Notes under the pieces: model-generated
The model's database searches: none
The model's input: the letters and a program-made list of their open reading frames with translations, nothing else
What the model was told of the DNA's origin: nothing
Shown here: positions 37,336-45,007 of the stretch, piece after piece
Numbering within the stretch: the first letter of the stretch is position 1
Layout of the letters: each line of letters starts with the position of its first letter
NCBI GenBank assembly: GCA_013289615.1
Contig: JABCZO010000003.1
Location: 62,001-126,000 of the forward strand
Length of the DNA stretch: 64,000 nt
Direction of reading: 5' to 3'
Source: Gammaproteobacteria bacterium
GTDB lineage: Bacteria; Pseudomonadota; Gammaproteobacteria; Steroidobacterales; Steroidobacteraceae
Program-made: the position numbers and the translations under genes

Positions 37336-38251
37336 GGCAATCGCGCTCATCCTCGGCGCGCTGGCGCTGCTGCTAGCGCGGTTGCCGGCGGCGCACAGCG
37401 CCGCGGCACCGGCACCTGCGCCGGCGCCCGCGCTGCAGCTGCAGGATGACGAACAGCGCCCGCTCGAGCTGGCGCGCCCGGCGCAGCGCATCGTCAGCCT
37501 GGCACCCGGGGCCACGGCGATGCTGTTTGCCGCCGGGGCCGGGGCGCACGTGGTCGGCACCAGCCAGTACTCCAACGAGCCGGAAGCGGCCAAAGCAATC
37601 GAGCGCATCGGCGATGCCCAGAGCTTCGACCTGGAGCGCATCCTGGCGCTGCATCCGGACGTGGTGGTGGTGTGGAGCGGCGGCACCTCGGCAACGCAGC
37701 TCGCGCGCCTGCAAGGCGTCGGTCTTCGCATCTATCGGCATCGCCTGACCGGCCTGGACGATCTTCCATCGAGCCTGCTGCGCTTGGGTCGCCTGGCCGG
37801 CACGCCAGCGCAGGCGCAGGCGGCCGCCGCGCAGTTCGGCGAGCGGATCGCGGCGCTGCGCGGCCTCTACCGGCAGGCGCCGCCGGCCACGGTGCTGATC
37901 CAGGTGTGGAACCGGCCGATCTATACGGTCGGCCGCACCCAGATCATGACCGATGTGATTCACGCCTGCGGCTATCGCAACGTCTACGAGGACCTTGGCG
38001 ATCCGGGACCAGCGGTCACGCTCGAGTCGGTACTGGCGCGCGACCCGCAGATCATCCTGGCGCTGCCACCCGACCAGAAAGCCGGGCTCGAGTGGCTGGC
38101 CGCCTGGCAGGCCTATCCGTCGATGCAGGCGGTGCGTTCCGGACGCGTGATCTCATGGACCGACCAGCGCCTGAGCCGCCTCGGGCCCAGTATCGTCGAC
38201 GCGGCCGAGGACCTGTGCCGTGCCCTGCGCCAGCCGCCAGCGCGTTCCTGA
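37316..38251 (+). CDS. cobalamin/heme-type ABC substrate-binding protein (BtuF-like)
   Basis: 311 residues. The GTG start at 37316 gives a good signal peptide (basic VRRSSTEA, then ILGALALLLARLPAAHSA); it overlaps the tetR end by 20 bp. Class III binding-protein fold: RIVSLAPGATAMLFAAGAG, LERILALHPDVVVVW, a long helix, and VYEDLGDPGPAVTLESVLARDPQIIL. BtuF-type proteins bind vitamin B12, heme or siderophores for an ABC importer, but no permease/ATPase is adjacent, so partners must lie elsewhere. The precise ligand is unknown. Confidence 0.87.
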   Translation: MRRSSTEAIALILGALALLLARLPAAHSAAAPAPAPAPALQLQDDEQRPLELARPAQRIVSLAPGATAMLFAAGAGAHVVGTSQYSNEPEAAKAIERIGDAQSFDLERILALHPDVVVVWSGGTSATQLARLQGVGLRIYRHRLTGLDDLPSSLLRLGRLAGTPAQAQAAAAQFGERIAALRGLYRQAPPATVLIQVWNRPIYTVGRTQIMTDVIHACGYRNVYEDLGDPGPAVTLESVLARDPQIILALPPDQKAGLEWLAAWQAYPSMQAVRSGRVISWTDQRLSRLGPSIVDAAEDLCRALRQPPARS

Positions 38252-38258
38252 CACATTC

Positions 38259-38288
38259 TTGACGCACGGCCGCGGCGCTCGCCATACT
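38259..38288 (+). promoter_or_regulatory. candidate trp operon promoter
   Basis: TTGACG (38259-38264), an 18-bp spacer and CATACT (38283-38288) fit a sigma-70 promoter. Initiation would fall near 38295, almost at the leader ATG at 38298, implying a very short or absent 5' leader before the peptide. No TrpR operator is recognised. Confidence 0.5.
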
Positions 38289-38297
38289 CCGGCGCCT

Positions 38298-38384
38298 ATG
38301 TCAGTGATCGTCGGGTCCGCCGGTGCGTGGTGGTGGCGCAGCTTCGCTAGCGGAGTGGGCGCTGGACGTTGCGGCATGTCTTAA
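38298..38384 (+). CDS. trpL: trp operon leader peptide with three tandem Trp codons
   Basis: 28 residues: a short N-terminal part, then Ala-Trp-Trp-Trp-Arg with the TGG triplets at 38328-38336, ending TCT-TAA at 38384. Its place between a promoter and a terminator hairpin directly before trpE makes it the sensor of charged tRNA-Trp. A ribosome stalled on the Trp codons would leave the segment from 38351 free to form the antiterminator. There is no clear Shine-Dalgarno before the ATG, so it may be translated almost leaderless. Confidence 0.88.
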   Translation: MSVIVGSAGAWWWRSFASGVGAGRCGMS

Positions 38385-38426
38385 TTCGAATCTAACAGGT
38401 ACAAGCAAACACCAGACCCATCTCCG
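38351..38426 (+). promoter_or_regulatory. trp antiterminator (region 2:3 pairing)
   Basis: CGGAGTGGG (38351-38359) can pair with CCCATCTCCG (38417-38426) with one bulged T, and CTGG (38362-38365) with CCAG (38412-38415), extending the same helix. This pairing uses the 5' arm of the terminator and so excludes it. Region 2 starts 15 nt after the last Trp codon, as the stalling model requires. Confidence 0.75.
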
Positions 38427-38452
38427 GAAGCATCCGGGATGGGTTTTTTATT
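38416..38452 (+). terminator. trp attenuator: rho-independent terminator before trpE
   Basis: ACCCATC (38416-38422) pairs with GATGGGT (38438-38444) and CCGGA (38424-38428) with TCCGG (38433-38437), with T38423 bulged and loop AGCA; six T residues follow (38444-38449). The stem's 3' arm also holds the only purine-rich stretch before the trpE ATG (38456), so the hairpin may block translation as well as transcription. Confidence 0.9.
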
Positions 38453-38455
38453 ATT

Positions 38456-39841
38456 ATGAAGCCGCCCTTCGACATCGCCGGCGATTTCGACACACCGGTG
38501 TCGGCGTTCGCCAAACTCGCGCCGTTCGAGCCGCGCTTTCTTCTCGAAAGCGTCGAGGGCGGCGAGCGCATCGCACGTTATTCCTTCATCGGCTTTGGCG
38601 ACGTGCTGCAGGTGCGGCTCGACCAGCAGTCGTTCGTGCTCGGTGACGAACGGCGTGCGCTGCCGCGTACCCAGGCGGAACTGCTCGACGGCCTGCGCAC
38701 CGCGTTGCGCCGGCTGCCGTCCCCGACCCCGACGCTCGGACAGGTGCCGCTGGCGGGCGGCCTGGTCGGCTTTACCTCCTACGACGTCGTGCGTTTTTTC
38801 GAGCGCCTGCCACAACGCCTGGCGCCGCTGCCGGCCGTGCCGCTGCTGCATTACCTGGCGCCGCGCTCGCTGCTGGTATTCGATCACGTCAGCCGCGGCA
38901 TTGCGCTGCTGCACGCCGGCAGCGACGCGGAGCGCGAATCGCTGCGCCGCGAGCTGATCCGCGCGCTGCGCGGTGCGGTGCCCTTCATCCGCACCGGCGG
39001 CGGCTTCAGCGTGCCGACACCGGCGTTGACGCGCGCTGAATACATCGGCGGCGTGCAGCGGGTGCAGGACTACATCGGCGCCGGCGACGTCTACCAGCTG
39101 GTGCTGTCATCGCGCTTCGCGGGCCGGCATGCGCTCGACCCGTTCCAGGTCTATCGCGCGCTGCGGCTGATCAACCCATCGCCCTACATGTACTTCTGCC
39201 GGCTCGGTGCCATGACCGTGGTGGGCTCATCACCCGAGGCACTCGTGAAGCTCAGCCGCGGGCAGGCGGAGCTGCGGCCGATTGCCGGCACGCGACCGCG
39301 GGCCGACGATGCGCTGGTCGATGCACGGCTGGAGGCCGAACTGCGCGCCGATATCAAGGAAAATGCCGAACACGTGATGCTGGTGGATCTGGCGCGCAAT
39401 GACCTGGGCCGCGTTGCCATCCCCGGCAGTGTGCGGGTCGAACCGTATCGCTCGATCGAGCGTTACAGCCACGTGATGCACATCGTCAGCGGCGTGCGCG
39501 GCCAGCTCGCGGCGCAGTGCGACGCCTTCGACCTGTTCGCTGCAACGTTTCCGGCCGGCACGCTGGTCGGTGCGCCCAAGGTGCGGGCCATGGAAATCAT
39601 CGAGGAGCTCGAGCCGGTGAGGCGCGGCCTGTACGGCGGCACGATCGGCTACTTCGGAGCCCAGGGCGATATGGATCAGGCGATCACGATACGCACGCTG
39701 GTGTTTCATGACGATGAGTACAGCTACCAGGCCGGCGCCGGCATCGTCGCCGACAGCATACCGGCGGCCGAGCACGATGAGGTGCTCGCCAAGAGTGCGG
39801 CGCTGCTGGGCGCGCTGAAACTCGCGGAGGAGGGCCTGTGA
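38456..39841 (+). CDS. trpE: anthranilate synthase component I
   Basis: 461 residues, a short TrpE. It makes anthranilate from chorismate with TrpG supplying ammonia. The feedback-inhibition motif LLES is at residues 29-32, and the catalytic C-terminal half has RPIAGTRPRADDA, ELRADIKENAEHVMLVDLARND, and TFPAGTLVGAPKVRAMEII. Retention of LLES argues for TrpE rather than PabB. It starts 7 nt after the attenuator T-tract and its stop overlaps the trpG GTG by 4 bp. Confidence 0.95.
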   Translation: MKPPFDIAGDFDTPVSAFAKLAPFEPRFLLESVEGGERIARYSFIGFGDVLQVRLDQQSFVLGDERRALPRTQAELLDGLRTALRRLPSPTPTLGQVPLAGGLVGFTSYDVVRFFERLPQRLAPLPAVPLLHYLAPRSLLVFDHVSRGIALLHAGSDAERESLRRELIRALRGAVPFIRTGGGFSVPTPALTRAEYIGGVQRVQDYIGAGDVYQLVLSSRFAGRHALDPFQVYRALRLINPSPYMYFCRLGAMTVVGSSPEALVKLSRGQAELRPIAGTRPRADDALVDARLEAELRADIKENAEHVMLVDLARNDLGRVAIPGSVRVEPYRSIERYSHVMHIVSGVRGQLAAQCDAFDLFAATFPAGTLVGAPKVRAMEIIEELEPVRRGLYGGTIGYFGAQGDMDQAITIRTLVFHDDEYSYQAGAGIVADSIPAAEHDEVLAKSAALLGALKLAEEGL

Positions 39842-40434
39842 GGGCGCGCTTGCTGCTGATCGATAACTACGACTCCTTCACCTACAACCTGGTGCAGGGG
39901 TTCCTGGTGCTGGGCGCGGACGTGCGTGTCTATCGCAACGACGCCATCACGGTGGAAGAAGCGCGCGCGCTGGCCCCGACGCACCTGTGCATCTCGCCCG
40001 GTCCTGGCACGCCGCAGCGCGCCGGGGTATCAATGCCGATGGTGCGCGCTTTCGCCGGACTGATCCCGGTGTTTGGCGTGTGCCTCGGGCATCAATCGAT
40101 CGTCGAGGTGTTCGGCGGCACGGTGCTGCGCGCCGGCCGGCTGATGCATGGCAAGACCTCGCTGATCGATCACGACGAACGCGGCGTGTTCGAGGATGTT
40201 GCCGCGGGCTGCGAGGTCGGCCGCTATCACTCGCTGATAGCCGAAGCCGATTCGATGCCGGCCGAGCTCGAGGTCAGCGCCCGTACGGCCGAAGGCGAGA
40301 TCATGGGCGTGCGCCACCGTCAGCTGATGGTCGAGGGCGTACAGTTTCATCCAGAGAGCGTGCTGACGCCGGACGGACCGGCGATGATGCGCAATTTCCT
40401 GCGCTTCAGCGGCGGCGAGCGCGGCGCGGATTGA
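39838..40434 (+). CDS. trpG: anthranilate synthase component II (glutamine amidotransferase)
   Basis: 198 residues, GTG start overlapping the trpE stop. Class I amidotransferase: LLIDNYDSFTYNLVQ at the N-terminus, oxyanion loop SPGPGTP (53-59), nucleophile Cys82 in GVCLGHQ, and the His/Glu dyad in VQFHPESVL. It delivers ammonia to TrpE and may also serve PabB, since no separate pabA is visible here. Unlike E. coli, it is not fused to trpD. Confidence 0.96.
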   Translation: MRARLLLIDNYDSFTYNLVQGFLVLGADVRVYRNDAITVEEARALAPTHLCISPGPGTPQRAGVSMPMVRAFAGLIPVFGVCLGHQSIVEVFGGTVLRAGRLMHGKTSLIDHDERGVFEDVAAGCEVGRYHSLIAEADSMPAELEVSARTAEGEIMGVRHRQLMVEGVQFHPESVLTPDGPAMMRNFLRFSGGERGAD

Positions 40435-40444
40435 GGTCACGCTC

Positions 40445-41503
40445 ATGACTGACGCCCTGGTGCTGCGTGCGATGCTCGATCGGCTGCTCGAGCGCGAGAA
40501 TCTCAGTCAGCAGGAGGCCGCGCAGCTGCTGACCGCGCTGACCGCGCATGACCTGGCGCCGGCGCTCGCCGGCGCACTGCTGGCCGCGTTGCAGGCCAAG
40601 GGCGTCACGGCCGAGGAGTTGCGCGGCTTTGCCGGATCGATGCGCTCGCTGGCGCGCCTGCCGCAGCTGCCGGCACTGCCCGACGCAGTCGATATCGTCG
40701 GCACCGGCGGGGATCGCTCCGGCAGCCTGAATCTGTCCACCGGCGCCGCGCTGCTGGCGGCTGCCTGCGGACTGCCGGTGGTCAAGCACGGCAATCGCGC
40801 GATCTCGAGCCGCGCCGGCAGCGCCGACGTACTGGAGGCGCTGGGGCTGCCGCTGCCGCTGGACGAAACCGCGGCCGGCCGCTGCTTTGCCGCGCTCGGC
40901 TTTACCTTTCTGTTTGCGCCCTACTACCACGCCGCCACCAGGAGCATCGCACCGGTGCGCGCGGCACTGGGGGTGCGCACCGTGTTCAACCTGCTTGGCC
41001 CGCTGAGTAACCCGGCGGCGCCGCCACACCTGGTGATCGGCGCCTTCAGCATCGCGACCGCGGAACTGATGGCGCATTCGCTGGTCGGCAGCGGCATCAA
41101 ACGCGCCTTCGTGATTCACGGCGCCGAAGGCTGGGACGAGCCGACACCGATCGGCAGCTTTACGCTGTTCGATGTCGGTGCCGAGAGCGTGCGCCGCGAG
41201 CAGCGCACACCGGCCGATTATGGTTTACCGCAGTGCGATGCCGGCGCGCTGGCCGGCGCCGACGCTCCTCACAATGCGCTCGAGCTCACGCGCGTGCTGC
41301 ACGGCGGCGGCGGCGCGGCGCATCGGCACGCGCTGCTGCTCGGCGCCGCACTGGCGCTGGAAGTCAGCGGCCGCGAGAGTTCCGCCACGCTGGCGATCGC
41401 GCGCGCAGCGCAGGCGATCGACGGGGGTGCTGCCGCCGATCTGCTGTTGCGTCTGGAGCGCTTCGGCGCCGAGGAAAAACTGCGTGCGAGTCCCGGCCTG
41501 TGA
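40445..41503 (+). CDS. trpD: anthranilate phosphoribosyltransferase
   Basis: 352 residues. It transfers phosphoribose from PRPP to anthranilate. The diagnostic loop GTGGDRSGSLNLST (about residue 84) binds PRPP, and VKHGNRAISSRAGSADVLEALG is the anthranilate-binding region; Asp-Glu metal ligands lie in HGAEGWDEPTPIG. It begins 10 bp after trpG, and its stop overlaps the trpC GTG (GTGA). Confidence 0.96.
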   Translation: MTDALVLRAMLDRLLERENLSQQEAAQLLTALTAHDLAPALAGALLAALQAKGVTAEELRGFAGSMRSLARLPQLPALPDAVDIVGTGGDRSGSLNLSTGAALLAAACGLPVVKHGNRAISSRAGSADVLEALGLPLPLDETAAGRCFAALGFTFLFAPYYHAATRSIAPVRAALGVRTVFNLLGPLSNPAAPPHLVIGAFSIATAELMAHSLVGSGIKRAFVIHGAEGWDEPTPIGSFTLFDVGAESVRREQRTPADYGLPQCDAGALAGADAPHNALELTRVLHGGGGAAHRHALLLGAALALEVSGRESSATLAIARAAQAIDGGAAADLLLRLERFGAEEKLRASPGL

Positions 41504-42327
41504 GCGCGGATTTTCTCGCCGCGATGGCACAGGCCAGTCACGCGCGGGTCGCGCGCGCGCAGCAGCTTTGTCCGCAGCAAGAACTTCAGGCTCTGGCCAG
41601 GGCGGTGCCGAGGGCACCAGCGCTGCGGCTGTCGCAACACGGCTTTGATCTGATCGCCGAGGTCAAGCGGCGCTCGCCGGCGGCCGGACAGCTCAGGCCA
41701 GCCAGCGATGACATCGCCGTGCGCGTGGCCGCGTACGCCGATGCCGGCGCCGCGGCCATCTCGGTCCTGACCGAGCCCAGCCGCTTCGATGGCACGCTAG
41801 CGCATGTCACACAGGCGGCGCAGGGGCTGGCGGGGCGCATCCCGGTGATGCGCAAGGATTTCCTTGTCGATGCCTACCAGGTGTATGAGGCGCGGCTGGC
41901 CGGGGCGGGCGGCGTGCTGATCATTCTGCGCATGCTGACCCGTGCCCAGATCGAAGCACTGCTCGAGGCCGCGGCACAGCTGGAACTGTTCACGCTGCTG
42001 GAAGCTTTCGATGAGGTCGATCTGAAACTGGCGGCCGAACTGGTGCGCGAGCATGGGCGGCGCGCAGCGCTACTGGTGGGGGTGAATTGCCGCGACCTGG
42101 TGACGCTCAAGGTCGTGCCCGGCAGGCTCGAGGCGCTGGCGCCGCTGCTGCCGCGCACGGTGCCGCGGGTGGCCGAGAGCGGGGTGTCGACCGGCGCCGA
42201 CGCGGCGCGCCTGGCGGCCGAGGGCTATGACGTCGCGCTGGTGGGCAGCGCGCTGATGCAATCGGGCGATCCGCTCAAGCTCGCCGCCTCGATGCTGGCG
42301 GCCGGGCGCGCCGGCGCACGGGCCTGA
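41500..42327 (+). CDS. trpC: indole-3-glycerol-phosphate synthase
   Basis: 275 residues from the GTG at 41500. TIM barrel: IAEVKRRSPAAGQL with the substrate-binding Lys/Ser region (the usual Ser-Pro-Ser reads Ser-Pro-Ala), SVLTEPSRFDGTL, VMRKDFLVDAYQVYEAR with the catalytic Lys-Asp, VGVNCRDLVTL, and AESGVSTGADA. A monofunctional enzyme, separate from trpF. It makes indole-glycerol phosphate from CdRP, which TrpA then cleaves. Its stop is 7 bp before trpF. Confidence 0.95.
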   Translation: MSADFLAAMAQASHARVARAQQLCPQQELQALARAVPRAPALRLSQHGFDLIAEVKRRSPAAGQLRPASDDIAVRVAAYADAGAAAISVLTEPSRFDGTLAHVTQAAQGLAGRIPVMRKDFLVDAYQVYEARLAGAGGVLIILRMLTRAQIEALLEAAAQLELFTLLEAFDEVDLKLAAELVREHGRRAALLVGVNCRDLVTLKVVPGRLEALAPLLPRTVPRVAESGVSTGADAARLAAEGYDVALVGSALMQSGDPLKLAASMLAAGRAGARA

Positions 42328-42334
42328 GGCTGTC

Positions 42335-42940
42335 ATGTGGCTGAAGATCTGCGGCATGACCGACCCGGATGCGGTGCAAGCGGCGCTGGCGGCACGGGTG
42401 GACGCGATCGGGTTCGTGTTCTCGGCGTCGGTACGCCGGCTGGAACCCGCGCAGGCGGCGCAGCTGGCGGCTGGTGCGCGCTCTCGTGCCACCCTGGTCG
42501 CCGTGACCTTGCATCCGCAACAGCCGCTGATCGACCAGATAATCCGCGTATTCAAGCCCGACGCGCTGCAGGCCGACCTGTCCGACTTCGAGCGCCTGCG
42601 CCTGCCCGATACGCTGGCGCGCCTGCCGGTGCTGCGCGCCGATGTCGCTGCCGGCACCCCGCTGCCGCGCCGATTCCTGTTCGAAGGCGCGCGCAGCGGC
42701 AGCGGCGCAGCAGCGGATTGGGAAACGGCCGCGAGGCTGGCGCGTGCGAGCGAACTGATACTGGCCGGCGGGCTCAATGTGCACAATATCGCCGCCGCGA
42801 TCCGCGCCGTGCGACCCTATGGCGTCGATGTGTCGAGCGGTGTCGAGTCGGCTCCGGGCCGCAAGAGCGTGCAGAAGATCGCTGAATTTGTCGAAGCCGC
42901 GAGGGCGGCATTGCAGGGGATGGCTCATGATGCAAATTGA
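42335..42940 (+). CDS. trpF: phosphoribosylanthranilate isomerase
   Basis: 201 residues. The N-terminal KICGMTDPDAV carries the catalytic Cys; GFVFSASVRRL is followed by a barrel, then LAGGLNVHNI and GVDVSSGVESAPGRKSVQKI with the catalytic Asp and the phosphate-binding C-terminus. It performs the Amadori rearrangement of PRA to CdRP. The 3' end overlaps trpB by 14 bp. Confidence 0.95.
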   Translation: MWLKICGMTDPDAVQAALAARVDAIGFVFSASVRRLEPAQAAQLAAGARSRATLVAVTLHPQQPLIDQIIRVFKPDALQADLSDFERLRLPDTLARLPVLRADVAAGTPLPRRFLFEGARSGSGAAADWETAARLARASELILAGGLNVHNIAAAIRAVRPYGVDVSSGVESAPGRKSVQKIAEFVEAARAALQGMAHDAN

Positions 42941-44204
42941 ACAGATTGATACGGTGCCGGAACACGAGCGCGCGCTGGCGGATCTGCTGGCGGGGCGTTA
43001 CCCGGACGAGCGCGGGCGCTACGGGGCGTTTGGCGGTCGCTACGTGCCGGAGACGCTGATTCCGGCGCACGAAAGACTGGAGCGCGGCGCACGCCGCTGG
43101 CTCGCGGATGCTGAATTTCAATCCGAGCTGGATCAGCAACTGCGCGACTGGGTAGGCCGGCCGACGCCGATCAGCCCGGCGCCGCACCTGTCGAAGCGCT
43201 GGGGCGCGCAGGTGTGGCTAAAGCGCGAGGACCTCGCGCACACCGGTGCGCACAAGATCAACAACGCGCTCGGCCAGGCACTGCTGGCGCGCCGGCTGGG
43301 TGCCAGGCGCGTGGTGGCGGAGACCGGCGCGGGCCAGCATGGGGTCGCCAGCGCGGCGGCTTGCGCGCGCGTCGGCCTGCCGTGCACGGTGTACATGGGC
43401 GAGGTCGACATGGCGCGCCAGGCGCCCAATGTCGGGCGAATGAAGCTGCTCGGGGCCACCGTGGTTGCGGTCGCGAGCGGCGATCGTACGCTGCGTGCGG
43501 CGATCGACGAGGCGCTGCGTGACTGGGTCTCCGATCCGACCAGCAGCTACTACCTGCTCGGTTCGGCGGTGGGCGCTCATCCCTATCCGTACATCGTTCG
43601 CGAACTGCAGGCGATCATCGGGCGCGAAGCTCGTGCGCAGATGCTCGAGCACGCCGGTGCGCTGCCCGATCTGGTGGTCGCCTGCGTCGGCGGCGGATCG
43701 AATGCCATCGGCCTGTTTCACGCTTTTCTCGGCGATCGCAGCGTCGCCATGCTCGGCGTCGAGGCCGGCGGCCGCGGCGCCGGACTGGGAGACAATGCGG
43801 CCACGCTGGTCTACGGCCACCCCGGGGTGCTGCACGGGAGTTATTCGATGCTGCTGCAGGATCGACACGGCCAGATCCAGGAGACGCATTCGATATCGGC
43901 CGGGCTGGACTATCCTGGCGTGGGCCCGGAACACGCGCTGCTGGCATCGATCGGTCGCGTGCGCTACGAGGCGGCGAGCGACGATGAGGCACTTGCGGCG
44001 GTGAAGGAATGCTGTGAGTGCGAAGGCATCCTGCCGGCGATCGAGAGCGCGCACGCGCTCGCCGGGGCGCGCCGTTGGGCCGCATCGCATCCCGGTACGC
44101 GCATCCTGGTCGGGGTGTCGGGGCGCGGCGATAAGGACATGCTGACGCTGACCCAGAGCTTGCTGGCGCCGCTCGCCTCGGCGCTCAAAGAGGCTCAGCC
44201 ATGA
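42927..44204 (+). CDS. trpB: tryptophan synthase beta chain
   Basis: 425 residues from the ATG at 42927 (a second ATG follows at once). The PLP lysine is Lys110 in HTGAHKINNALGQ; the phosphate loop is VACVGGGSNAIG; ETGAGQHGVAS and GRGDKDMLT are also present. It condenses indole and serine to Trp, with indole channelled from TrpA. The extra N-terminal stretch of about 25 residues is longer than in E. coli TrpB (397). The stop overlaps the trpA ATG by 4 bp. Confidence 0.96.
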   Translation: MMQIEQIDTVPEHERALADLLAGRYPDERGRYGAFGGRYVPETLIPAHERLERGARRWLADAEFQSELDQQLRDWVGRPTPISPAPHLSKRWGAQVWLKREDLAHTGAHKINNALGQALLARRLGARRVVAETGAGQHGVASAAACARVGLPCTVYMGEVDMARQAPNVGRMKLLGATVVAVASGDRTLRAAIDEALRDWVSDPTSSYYLLGSAVGAHPYPYIVRELQAIIGREARAQMLEHAGALPDLVVACVGGGSNAIGLFHAFLGDRSVAMLGVEAGGRGAGLGDNAATLVYGHPGVLHGSYSMLLQDRHGQIQETHSISAGLDYPGVGPEHALLASIGRVRYEAASDDEALAAVKECCECEGILPAIESAHALAGARRWAASHPGTRILVGVSGRGDKDMLTLTQSLLAPLASALKEAQP

Positions 44205-45007
44205 CCGCGACATCATCGCCGGCTGGCACCGTGTTACCGCACGAGCGCATCGTGTCGGCACTGCGCGACGCGGCCAAGCATGGCCAGCCGGCACTGGTGG
44301 CGTTTCTGACCGCGGGCTTTCCGAGCCGCGAAAGATTTCGCGAACATCTGGCGGCCGTTGCCAGCGAAGCCGATGTGGTCGAAATCGGGGTGCCGTTCTC
44401 CGATCCGATGGCCGATGGTGTCACCATCCAGCGTTCCAGCGAGCAGGCGCTGCGCGCCGGCGTGACGCTCAGCTGGATATTGGAGCAGCTCGGGTCGCAG
44501 CCGCCGCTGGCCACCCCGCTGCTGCTGATGAGTTATATGAACCCGCTGCTGGCTTTTGGTCTTACGGCGCTGGCCAAGCACGCTGTGCGCGTCGGTGTCT
44601 GCGGTTTCATCGTGCCCGATCTGCCATTCGATGAGAGCGAGTACTTGCGCGTGGCACTGTCACCGCACGGGTTGGCGCTGGTACAGATGGTGACCCCGGT
44701 GACGCCGCCGGAGCGGCTTGCCAGGGTGGCGGGTGCGAGCCAGGGTTTTGTCTATGCGGTCACGATGACCGGCACGACCGGCAACAAGGCCGCGGCACCG
44801 AAGGAGATCGCCGATTATCTGGTGCGCGTGCGCGCGGCGGCCAGCGTGCCGGTGTGCGCCGGCTTTGGCATACGCGCGCGCGAGCAGGTCGAGGCCCTGA
44901 GAGGCATGGTGGATGGGGTCATCGTTGGCTCGGCGCTGGTGGAAGTGCTGGAGCGCGGCGAATCGCCGCAGCCGTGGCTCGCGGCACTTCGGCCGCCACG
45001 CCGATGA
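44201..45007 (+). CDS. trpA: tryptophan synthase alpha chain
   Basis: 268 residues. Catalytic Glu in DVVEIGVPFSDPMADG (about 63-78) and Asp in FIVPDLPFDESEYL; the flexible loop is YAVTMTGTTGNKAA; phosphate binding is in GFGIRAREQV and VDGVIVGSALV. It splits indole-glycerol phosphate to indole for TrpB. Last gene of the trp operon; no terminator is visible behind it, so transcription may read into the next genes. Confidence 0.96.
   Translation: MTATSSPAGTVLPHERIVSALRDAAKHGQPALVAFLTAGFPSRERFREHLAAVASEADVVEIGVPFSDPMADGVTIQRSSEQALRAGVTLSWILEQLGSQPPLATPLLLMSYMNPLLAFGLTALAKHAVRVGVCGFIVPDLPFDESEYLRVALSPHGLALVQMVTPVTPPERLARVAGASQGFVYAVTMTGTTGNKAAAPKEIADYLVRVRAAASVPVCAGFGIRAREQVEALRGMVDGVIVGSALVEVLERGESPQPWLAALRPPRR

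Follow-up and report, generated by a model that had tools for sequence, protein, structure and literature searches.

A probable trp attenuator of the ribosome-mediated type, with a predicted near-leaderless trpL, ahead of a gammaproteobacterial trpEGDCFBA operon

Textbook knowledge of trp attenuation comes mostly from Escherichia coli, where trpL possesses a Shine-Dalgarno (SD) sequence and a 5′ untranslated region (5′ UTR) and its reading frame ends just before strand 2, the 5′ strand of the antiterminator. A comparable set of elements lies ahead of trpE in an uncultured gammaproteobacterium (genome G000; 74 contigs, 83% complete), within a 64,000-nt stretch of DNA that was analyzed as a whole and is referred to below as the window. 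An earlier note, made from the sequence alone, had read these elements as a complete trp attenuator. Two features of the locus stand out: the distance from the predicted transcript start to the trpL ATG leaves, as read from the sequence, too little space for an SD, and the trpL reading frame continues through strand 2. The elements, with their positions in the window, are as follows.

38259–38288, plus strand: sigma-70-like promoter TTGACG-N18-CATACT, read from the sequence (−35, 38259–38264; −10, 38283–38288; spacer 18)
About 38294–38298, plus strand: predicted transcription start, from the promoter position
38298–38384, plus strand: trpL leader peptide ORF, 28 codons, MSVIVGSAGAWWWRSFASGVGAGRCGMS (ATG 38298–38300; TAA 38382–38384)
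38328–38336, plus strand: consecutive Trp control codons TGG TGG TGG, codons 11–13, read from the sequence
38335–38363, plus strand: 1:2 (protector) hairpin, 38335–38346 paired with 38351–38363 (folding, −15.0 kcal/mol)
38350–38366, plus strand: strand 2, the antiterminator 5′ strand (duplex with strand 3)
38411–38428, plus strand: strand 3, common to antiterminator and terminator (duplex, alignment, folding)
38414–38449, plus strand: intrinsic terminator 3:4 (stem 38414–38446, bulge 38423, loop 38429–38432)
38444–38449, plus strand: U-tract, read from the sequence
38456–39841, plus strand: trpE, anthranilate synthase component I (Pfam PF00425, PF04715), its ATG 6 nt after the U-tract
39838–45007, plus strand: trpG, trpD, trpC, trpF, trpB, trpA (ORFs; Pfam for trpG, trpD, trpF, trpB, trpA)

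The ORF list and Pfam matches place the attenuator ahead of the whole trp operon, trpEGDCFBA; the name of trpC comes from its reading alone, and the other six trp genes have Pfam matches. The promoter described in the earlier note is present at 38259–38288 and is the sole sigma-70-like match on either strand in 38100–38700 (9 of 12 positions; shuffle mean 0.0), and the 28-residue leader ORF with its three consecutive TGG codons can be read directly, with its end where the note had put it. On the minus strand, an antisense open frame of 177 codons (38381–38914) overlaps the attenuator and the start of trpE, and is probably a by-product of high G+C content.

These sequence elements very likely form a trp attenuator of the classical, ribosome-mediated kind whose leader gene is near-leaderless. 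In the proposed mechanism, RNA polymerase would start at or a few nucleotides before the trpL AUG, and a start in this position would require ribosomes to load at the 5′ end without an SD. When charged Trp-tRNA is scarce, the ribosome would stall at codons 11–13 and cover strand 1, allowing strand 2 and strand 3 to pair and transcription to continue into trpEGDCFBA. When Trp is ample, the ribosome would pass through strand 2 and stop at 38384; strand 2 would be covered in passing or be back in the 1:2 hairpin, strand 3 would pair with strand 4, and transcription would end at the U-tract. The sequences themselves establish the elements, their conservation, the 2:3 and 3:4 pairing in relatives and the bounds on the leader stop; where transcription starts, how the leader is initiated, and the stalling, read-through and response to Trp are inferred.

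In the window, the terminator (38412–38450) folds at −22.0 kcal/mol with a z-score of −5.99, and 0 of 200 shuffles were equal or better. The terminator, its bulge and the U-tract agree with the bulged hairpin and six T described previously just before trpE, but the length does not: the stem has 11 strong base pairs with one bulged U, or 14 bp when a weak A-U/G-U extension is counted, rather than 12. The complementarity claimed between a region-2 segment and the 5′ side of the terminator is also borne out, the duplex of strand 2 (38350–38366) with strand 3 (38411–38428) reaching −20.9 kcal/mol, with a z-score of −3.5 when the strand-2 region is shuffled. The whole leader (38295–38470) is not more stable than its shuffles, 58 of 200 of which do as well (z −0.57), and the 1:2 hairpin, at −15.0 kcal/mol (z −0.87), and the partial folds containing 2:3 lie within the shuffle range, with z-scores from −0.80 to −0.87. 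In folding without strand 1, a check of the kind that had been suggested, the minimum-energy fold remains the terminator, not 2:3; it becomes the 2:3 pairing only with strand 4 absent. That 2:3 wins only before strand 4 is made is the behavior expected of a co-transcriptional switch. Since the partial folds have z-scores of only about −0.8, the support for 2:3 pairing comes mainly from conservation. The full length of the Rfam Trp_leader model (RF00513) can be aligned to 38326–38452 with 19.8 bits, and the window attenuator is not assigned to this family because the score falls under its gathering score of 41; under the curated Rfam cut-offs, no family reaches its gathering score within the window.

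Conservation was assessed in 160 trpE upstream regions of the window's order, including the window's own; G021, G047, G054, G234, G237, G305, and G327, which gave partial or divergent TrpE matches, were left out of this set. A Trp-rich leader ORF, for which the search demanded WW or W.W, was detected in 154 of the 160 regions and contains two Trp codons in 45 leaders, three in 95, and four in 14. Among the six regions in which it was not recovered, that of G308 had been taken from the wrong place; by eye, G313, G238, G269, and G287 retain both a promoter and a terminator, their Trp run being degenerate, while G041 shows neither promoter nor terminator. The script called no terminator in 9 of the 154 leaders, leaving 145; exclusion of G211 as a wrong leader reduced these to 144, and of two further leaders as too long to the 142 that were aligned. 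The z-score of the 2:3 duplex is below 0 in 144/145 genomes (median −2.93), and at least 6 bp of 2:3 form in the fold lacking strands 1 and 4 in 143/144, strand 2 being taken for this purpose as the best duplex partner.

Across the 142 aligned leaders, the 3:4 pairs of the window are standard in 79.5% of cells (41–72% with partners slid by 1–3) and the 2:3 pairs in 71.9% (41–55% when slid), with the true register favored in that the pairs scored are those of the window's own fold. Double changes, with both partners altered, occur in 100 cells for 3:4 (19–100 when slid) and 126 for 2:3 (26–112 when slid). For 3:4, a slide of −1 approaches the true register (71.6% paired, the same 100 double-change cells), and for 2:3 the same slide gives 54.6% paired and 112 double-change cells versus 126. 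Pairing is therefore kept, the excess of double changes over the slid controls is modest, and the strands are mostly conserved in sequence. The earlier note had named lack of conservation of the TGG run and of 2:3 pairing in relatives as one result that would count against an attenuator; both are conserved.

Some members of the order depart from this pattern. In leaders L017, L241, L243, L245, L246, and L248 (genomes G031, G256, G285, G304, G316, and G296), the strand-2 frame adds a Trp codon inside strand 2 (..PEWA.GC); a ribosome stalled there would occupy strand 2 itself, and this subgroup has no promoter by the criterion used. In family f12, TrpE was not matched at E 1e-120 in genomes G207, G218, G230, G239, G246, G252, and G262, and for G047, also of this family, there is only a 49% relative.

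The position of trpE bears on a further suggestion of the earlier note, that the hairpin may block translation of trpE as well as transcription. In the window, the 6 nt that separate the U-tract from the trpE ATG hold no SD-like string, so that GGGATGGG in strand 4, the only G-rich string near upstream of trpE, would be the sole candidate ribosome site for the gene. In such an arrangement the 3:4 hairpin would both end transcription and hide the trpE ribosome site, such that leaked transcripts would be poorly translated. This dual block fits the window sequence but is considered doubtful even here, as 12 nt separate the end of GGGATGGG from the ATG, which is distant for an SD. Nor is it general: with trpE starts taken from the homology match, just 8/145 genomes have a U-tract ending no more than 9 nt from trpE, and in 7 of these no SD-like string follows it, whereas loose patterns detect such a string after the U-tract in 85/145. 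A double block is thus possible in those genomes in which the U-tract lies close to trpE, and is not a property of the order as a whole.

The second unusual feature, that the trpL ORF crosses strand 2 and ends beyond it, was not remarked upon in the earlier note. In the window, the ORF stops 30 nt past the start of the G-rich core of strand 2. With 8 of the 145 leaders lacking a recognizable strand-2 core, stop positions were compared in 137, of which 43 have the stop 1–7 nt before the core and 94 have it 9–30 nt past the core start, the window's stop being at the outer limit of the latter range. As a ribosome footprint reaches back some 15 nt from the P site, a ribosome halted at the leader stop of the window would have almost no contact with strand 2; the Trp-replete state in the window probably rests on ribosome passage or on the 1:2 hairpin. 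On a TrpE tree of 45 family members (43 labeled), the stop-before and stop-after states require at least five changes; the stop-after state of the window is common to G004, G011, G006, and G009, and in the sister genome G010 the same frame already terminates ahead of strand 2.

Two candidate causes of the two stop classes were rejected. TrpR (PF01371) is near-universal, being found in 139/167 genomes of the order; it was not found in G000, an 83% complete genome. CTAG, the core of the TrpR operator, is present in only 2/128 promoter stretches. A stronger 1:2 hairpin in stop-after leaders was likewise not seen, the median energies being −15.1 kcal/mol for stop-before leaders (43) versus −13.3 kcal/mol for stop-after leaders (101).

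It is tentatively proposed that the trp attenuator of the order is run by 5′-end-loaded ribosomes, and that the position of the leader stop, either just before the strand-2 core or 9–30 nt past its start, could act as a repeatedly reset knob for basal read-through, with the clade of the window at the outer limit. Neutral drift of the stop codon, rather than tuning, would account for its lability within one family and is in keeping with the inability of a nearly ubiquitous TrpR to explain the two classes. Strand 2 also leaves little room for stops, and the core sequence itself explains why few lie inside it. The outer limit is not so explained, however: in 0/137 leaders is the stop further than 30 nt from the core start, compared with 172/274 first stops of the other two frames that lie beyond this limit, and drift is regarded as a rather unlikely account.

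That trpL is near-leaderless is suggested by the position of its promoter across the order. By a criterion of at least four matches of six in each hexamer, with gaps to the start codon allowed up to about 60 nt, a promoter was scored for 130 of the 154 leaders; its −10 element ends 6–10 nt before the start codon in 128 and 35–36 nt before it in 2. Many of the 24 regions without a promoter by this criterion have, by eye, TTGAC and a weaker −10 close to the ATG, and one subgroup does not. When two regions with <90 nt of upstream sequence are set aside, the 6–10 nt gap is found in 128/152 regions of the order versus 23/3040 Markov shuffles, a comparison in which this gap is somewhat favored because the −10 (TATACT) was fitted to the set and the promoter score was used in choosing start codons. 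The start codon is ATG in 127 of the 128. This conserved gap accords with the earlier note's prediction of a transcript start almost at the leader ATG, and suggests that a near-leaderless trpL is probably the rule in much of the order.

Control leaders were sought elsewhere in the class, where 117/149 genomes gave a TrpE match, 115 of them from other orders. Of these 115, 106 were scanned and then 6 more, the remainder being two loci of insufficient length and G124. The 6–10 nt gap occurs in 0/22 Trp-rich trpE leaders from other orders, hand-picked from 39 regions with a Trp-pair ORF, and leaders were present in 2 of the 6 genomes scanned later, neither with a promoter at 6–10 nt. Within the window's genome, no other near-leaderless gene with the same promoter shape was found, trpL being the sole match. 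A literature search covering titles and the beginnings of abstracts, with subscription journals mostly outside its coverage, found no report of a leaderless trpL in Gammaproteobacteria.

The same attenuator could instead be transcribed from further upstream, by read-through or from another promoter, giving a longer 5′ UTR and a trpL that is not leaderless. A periplasmic-binding-protein gene ends at 38251, 7 nt before the −35 element, making read-through transcripts possible, and the trpL of Campylobacter jejuni has been predicted to have a ribosome site (PMC3847290). Such an arrangement is nevertheless improbable given the promoter 6–10 nt ahead of the start codon in most regions of the order, and no SD-like string precedes the trpL ATG of the window even if a longer transcript is allowed. 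The end of the periplasmic-binding-protein gene occurs a second time in the genome (L002; G000:C64, match 1342–1401), 88% identical over 60 matched bases; the sequence there diverges at about the −35, has by eye a transposase-like reading and not a trp leader, and could represent an assembly strain variant or a duplication.

A chance collection of a GC-rich ORF and the terminator of an upstream gene, with which the unexceptional 1:2 hairpin and whole-leader fold would be compatible, can be dismissed in view of the order-wide conservation of the leader, promoter gap and pairing and the location ahead of trpE.

A near-leaderless classical attenuator shares with E. coli trpL (RF00513) its Trp codons, the competition between a 2:3 and a 3:4 hairpin, the U-tract, and the position ahead of trpE, but differs in having no room for an SD and a stop after strand 2. 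The 22 trpE leaders from other gammaproteobacterial orders, many of them with WRW, also comprise a short Trp-rich ORF but lack the promoter gap. Closer parallels to the layout are found in more distant bacteria. In Sinorhizobium meliloti, rnTrpL of the trpLE(G) attenuator (rnTrpL/peTrpL) has the trpL ATG at its very 5′ end and is reported as a possible leaderless mRNA (PMC7298713); a leaderless trpL would be common to both systems, predicted in the window from promoter position, but S. meliloti is an alphaproteobacterium with a 14-aa peptide, a trpE(G) fusion, and reported trans roles. For Streptomyces lividans, an actinobacterium and thus also unlike the window, leaderless status is reported for the attenuator peptides LeuL1, LeuL2, IlvL, and MetL, and a trpL1 ahead of trpE with three consecutive Trp is described (PMC8079986). 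Classical trp attenuators have also been predicted in Corynebacterium and Streptomyces (PMC1262725). The Sinorhizobium and Streptomyces cases indicate that leaderless attenuation is already known in kind; what appears to be new in the window is a near-leaderless layout combined with a stop beyond strand 2, within a classical attenuation mechanism whose functional steps are all predicted.

Since closely related members of the window's family differ in whether the stop precedes or follows strand 2, the predicted effect of stop position on basal read-through is directly testable. If a near-leaderless trpL is indeed widely conserved, 5′-end loading would be a way of coupling ribosome to polymerase for attenuation in Gammaproteobacteria too.
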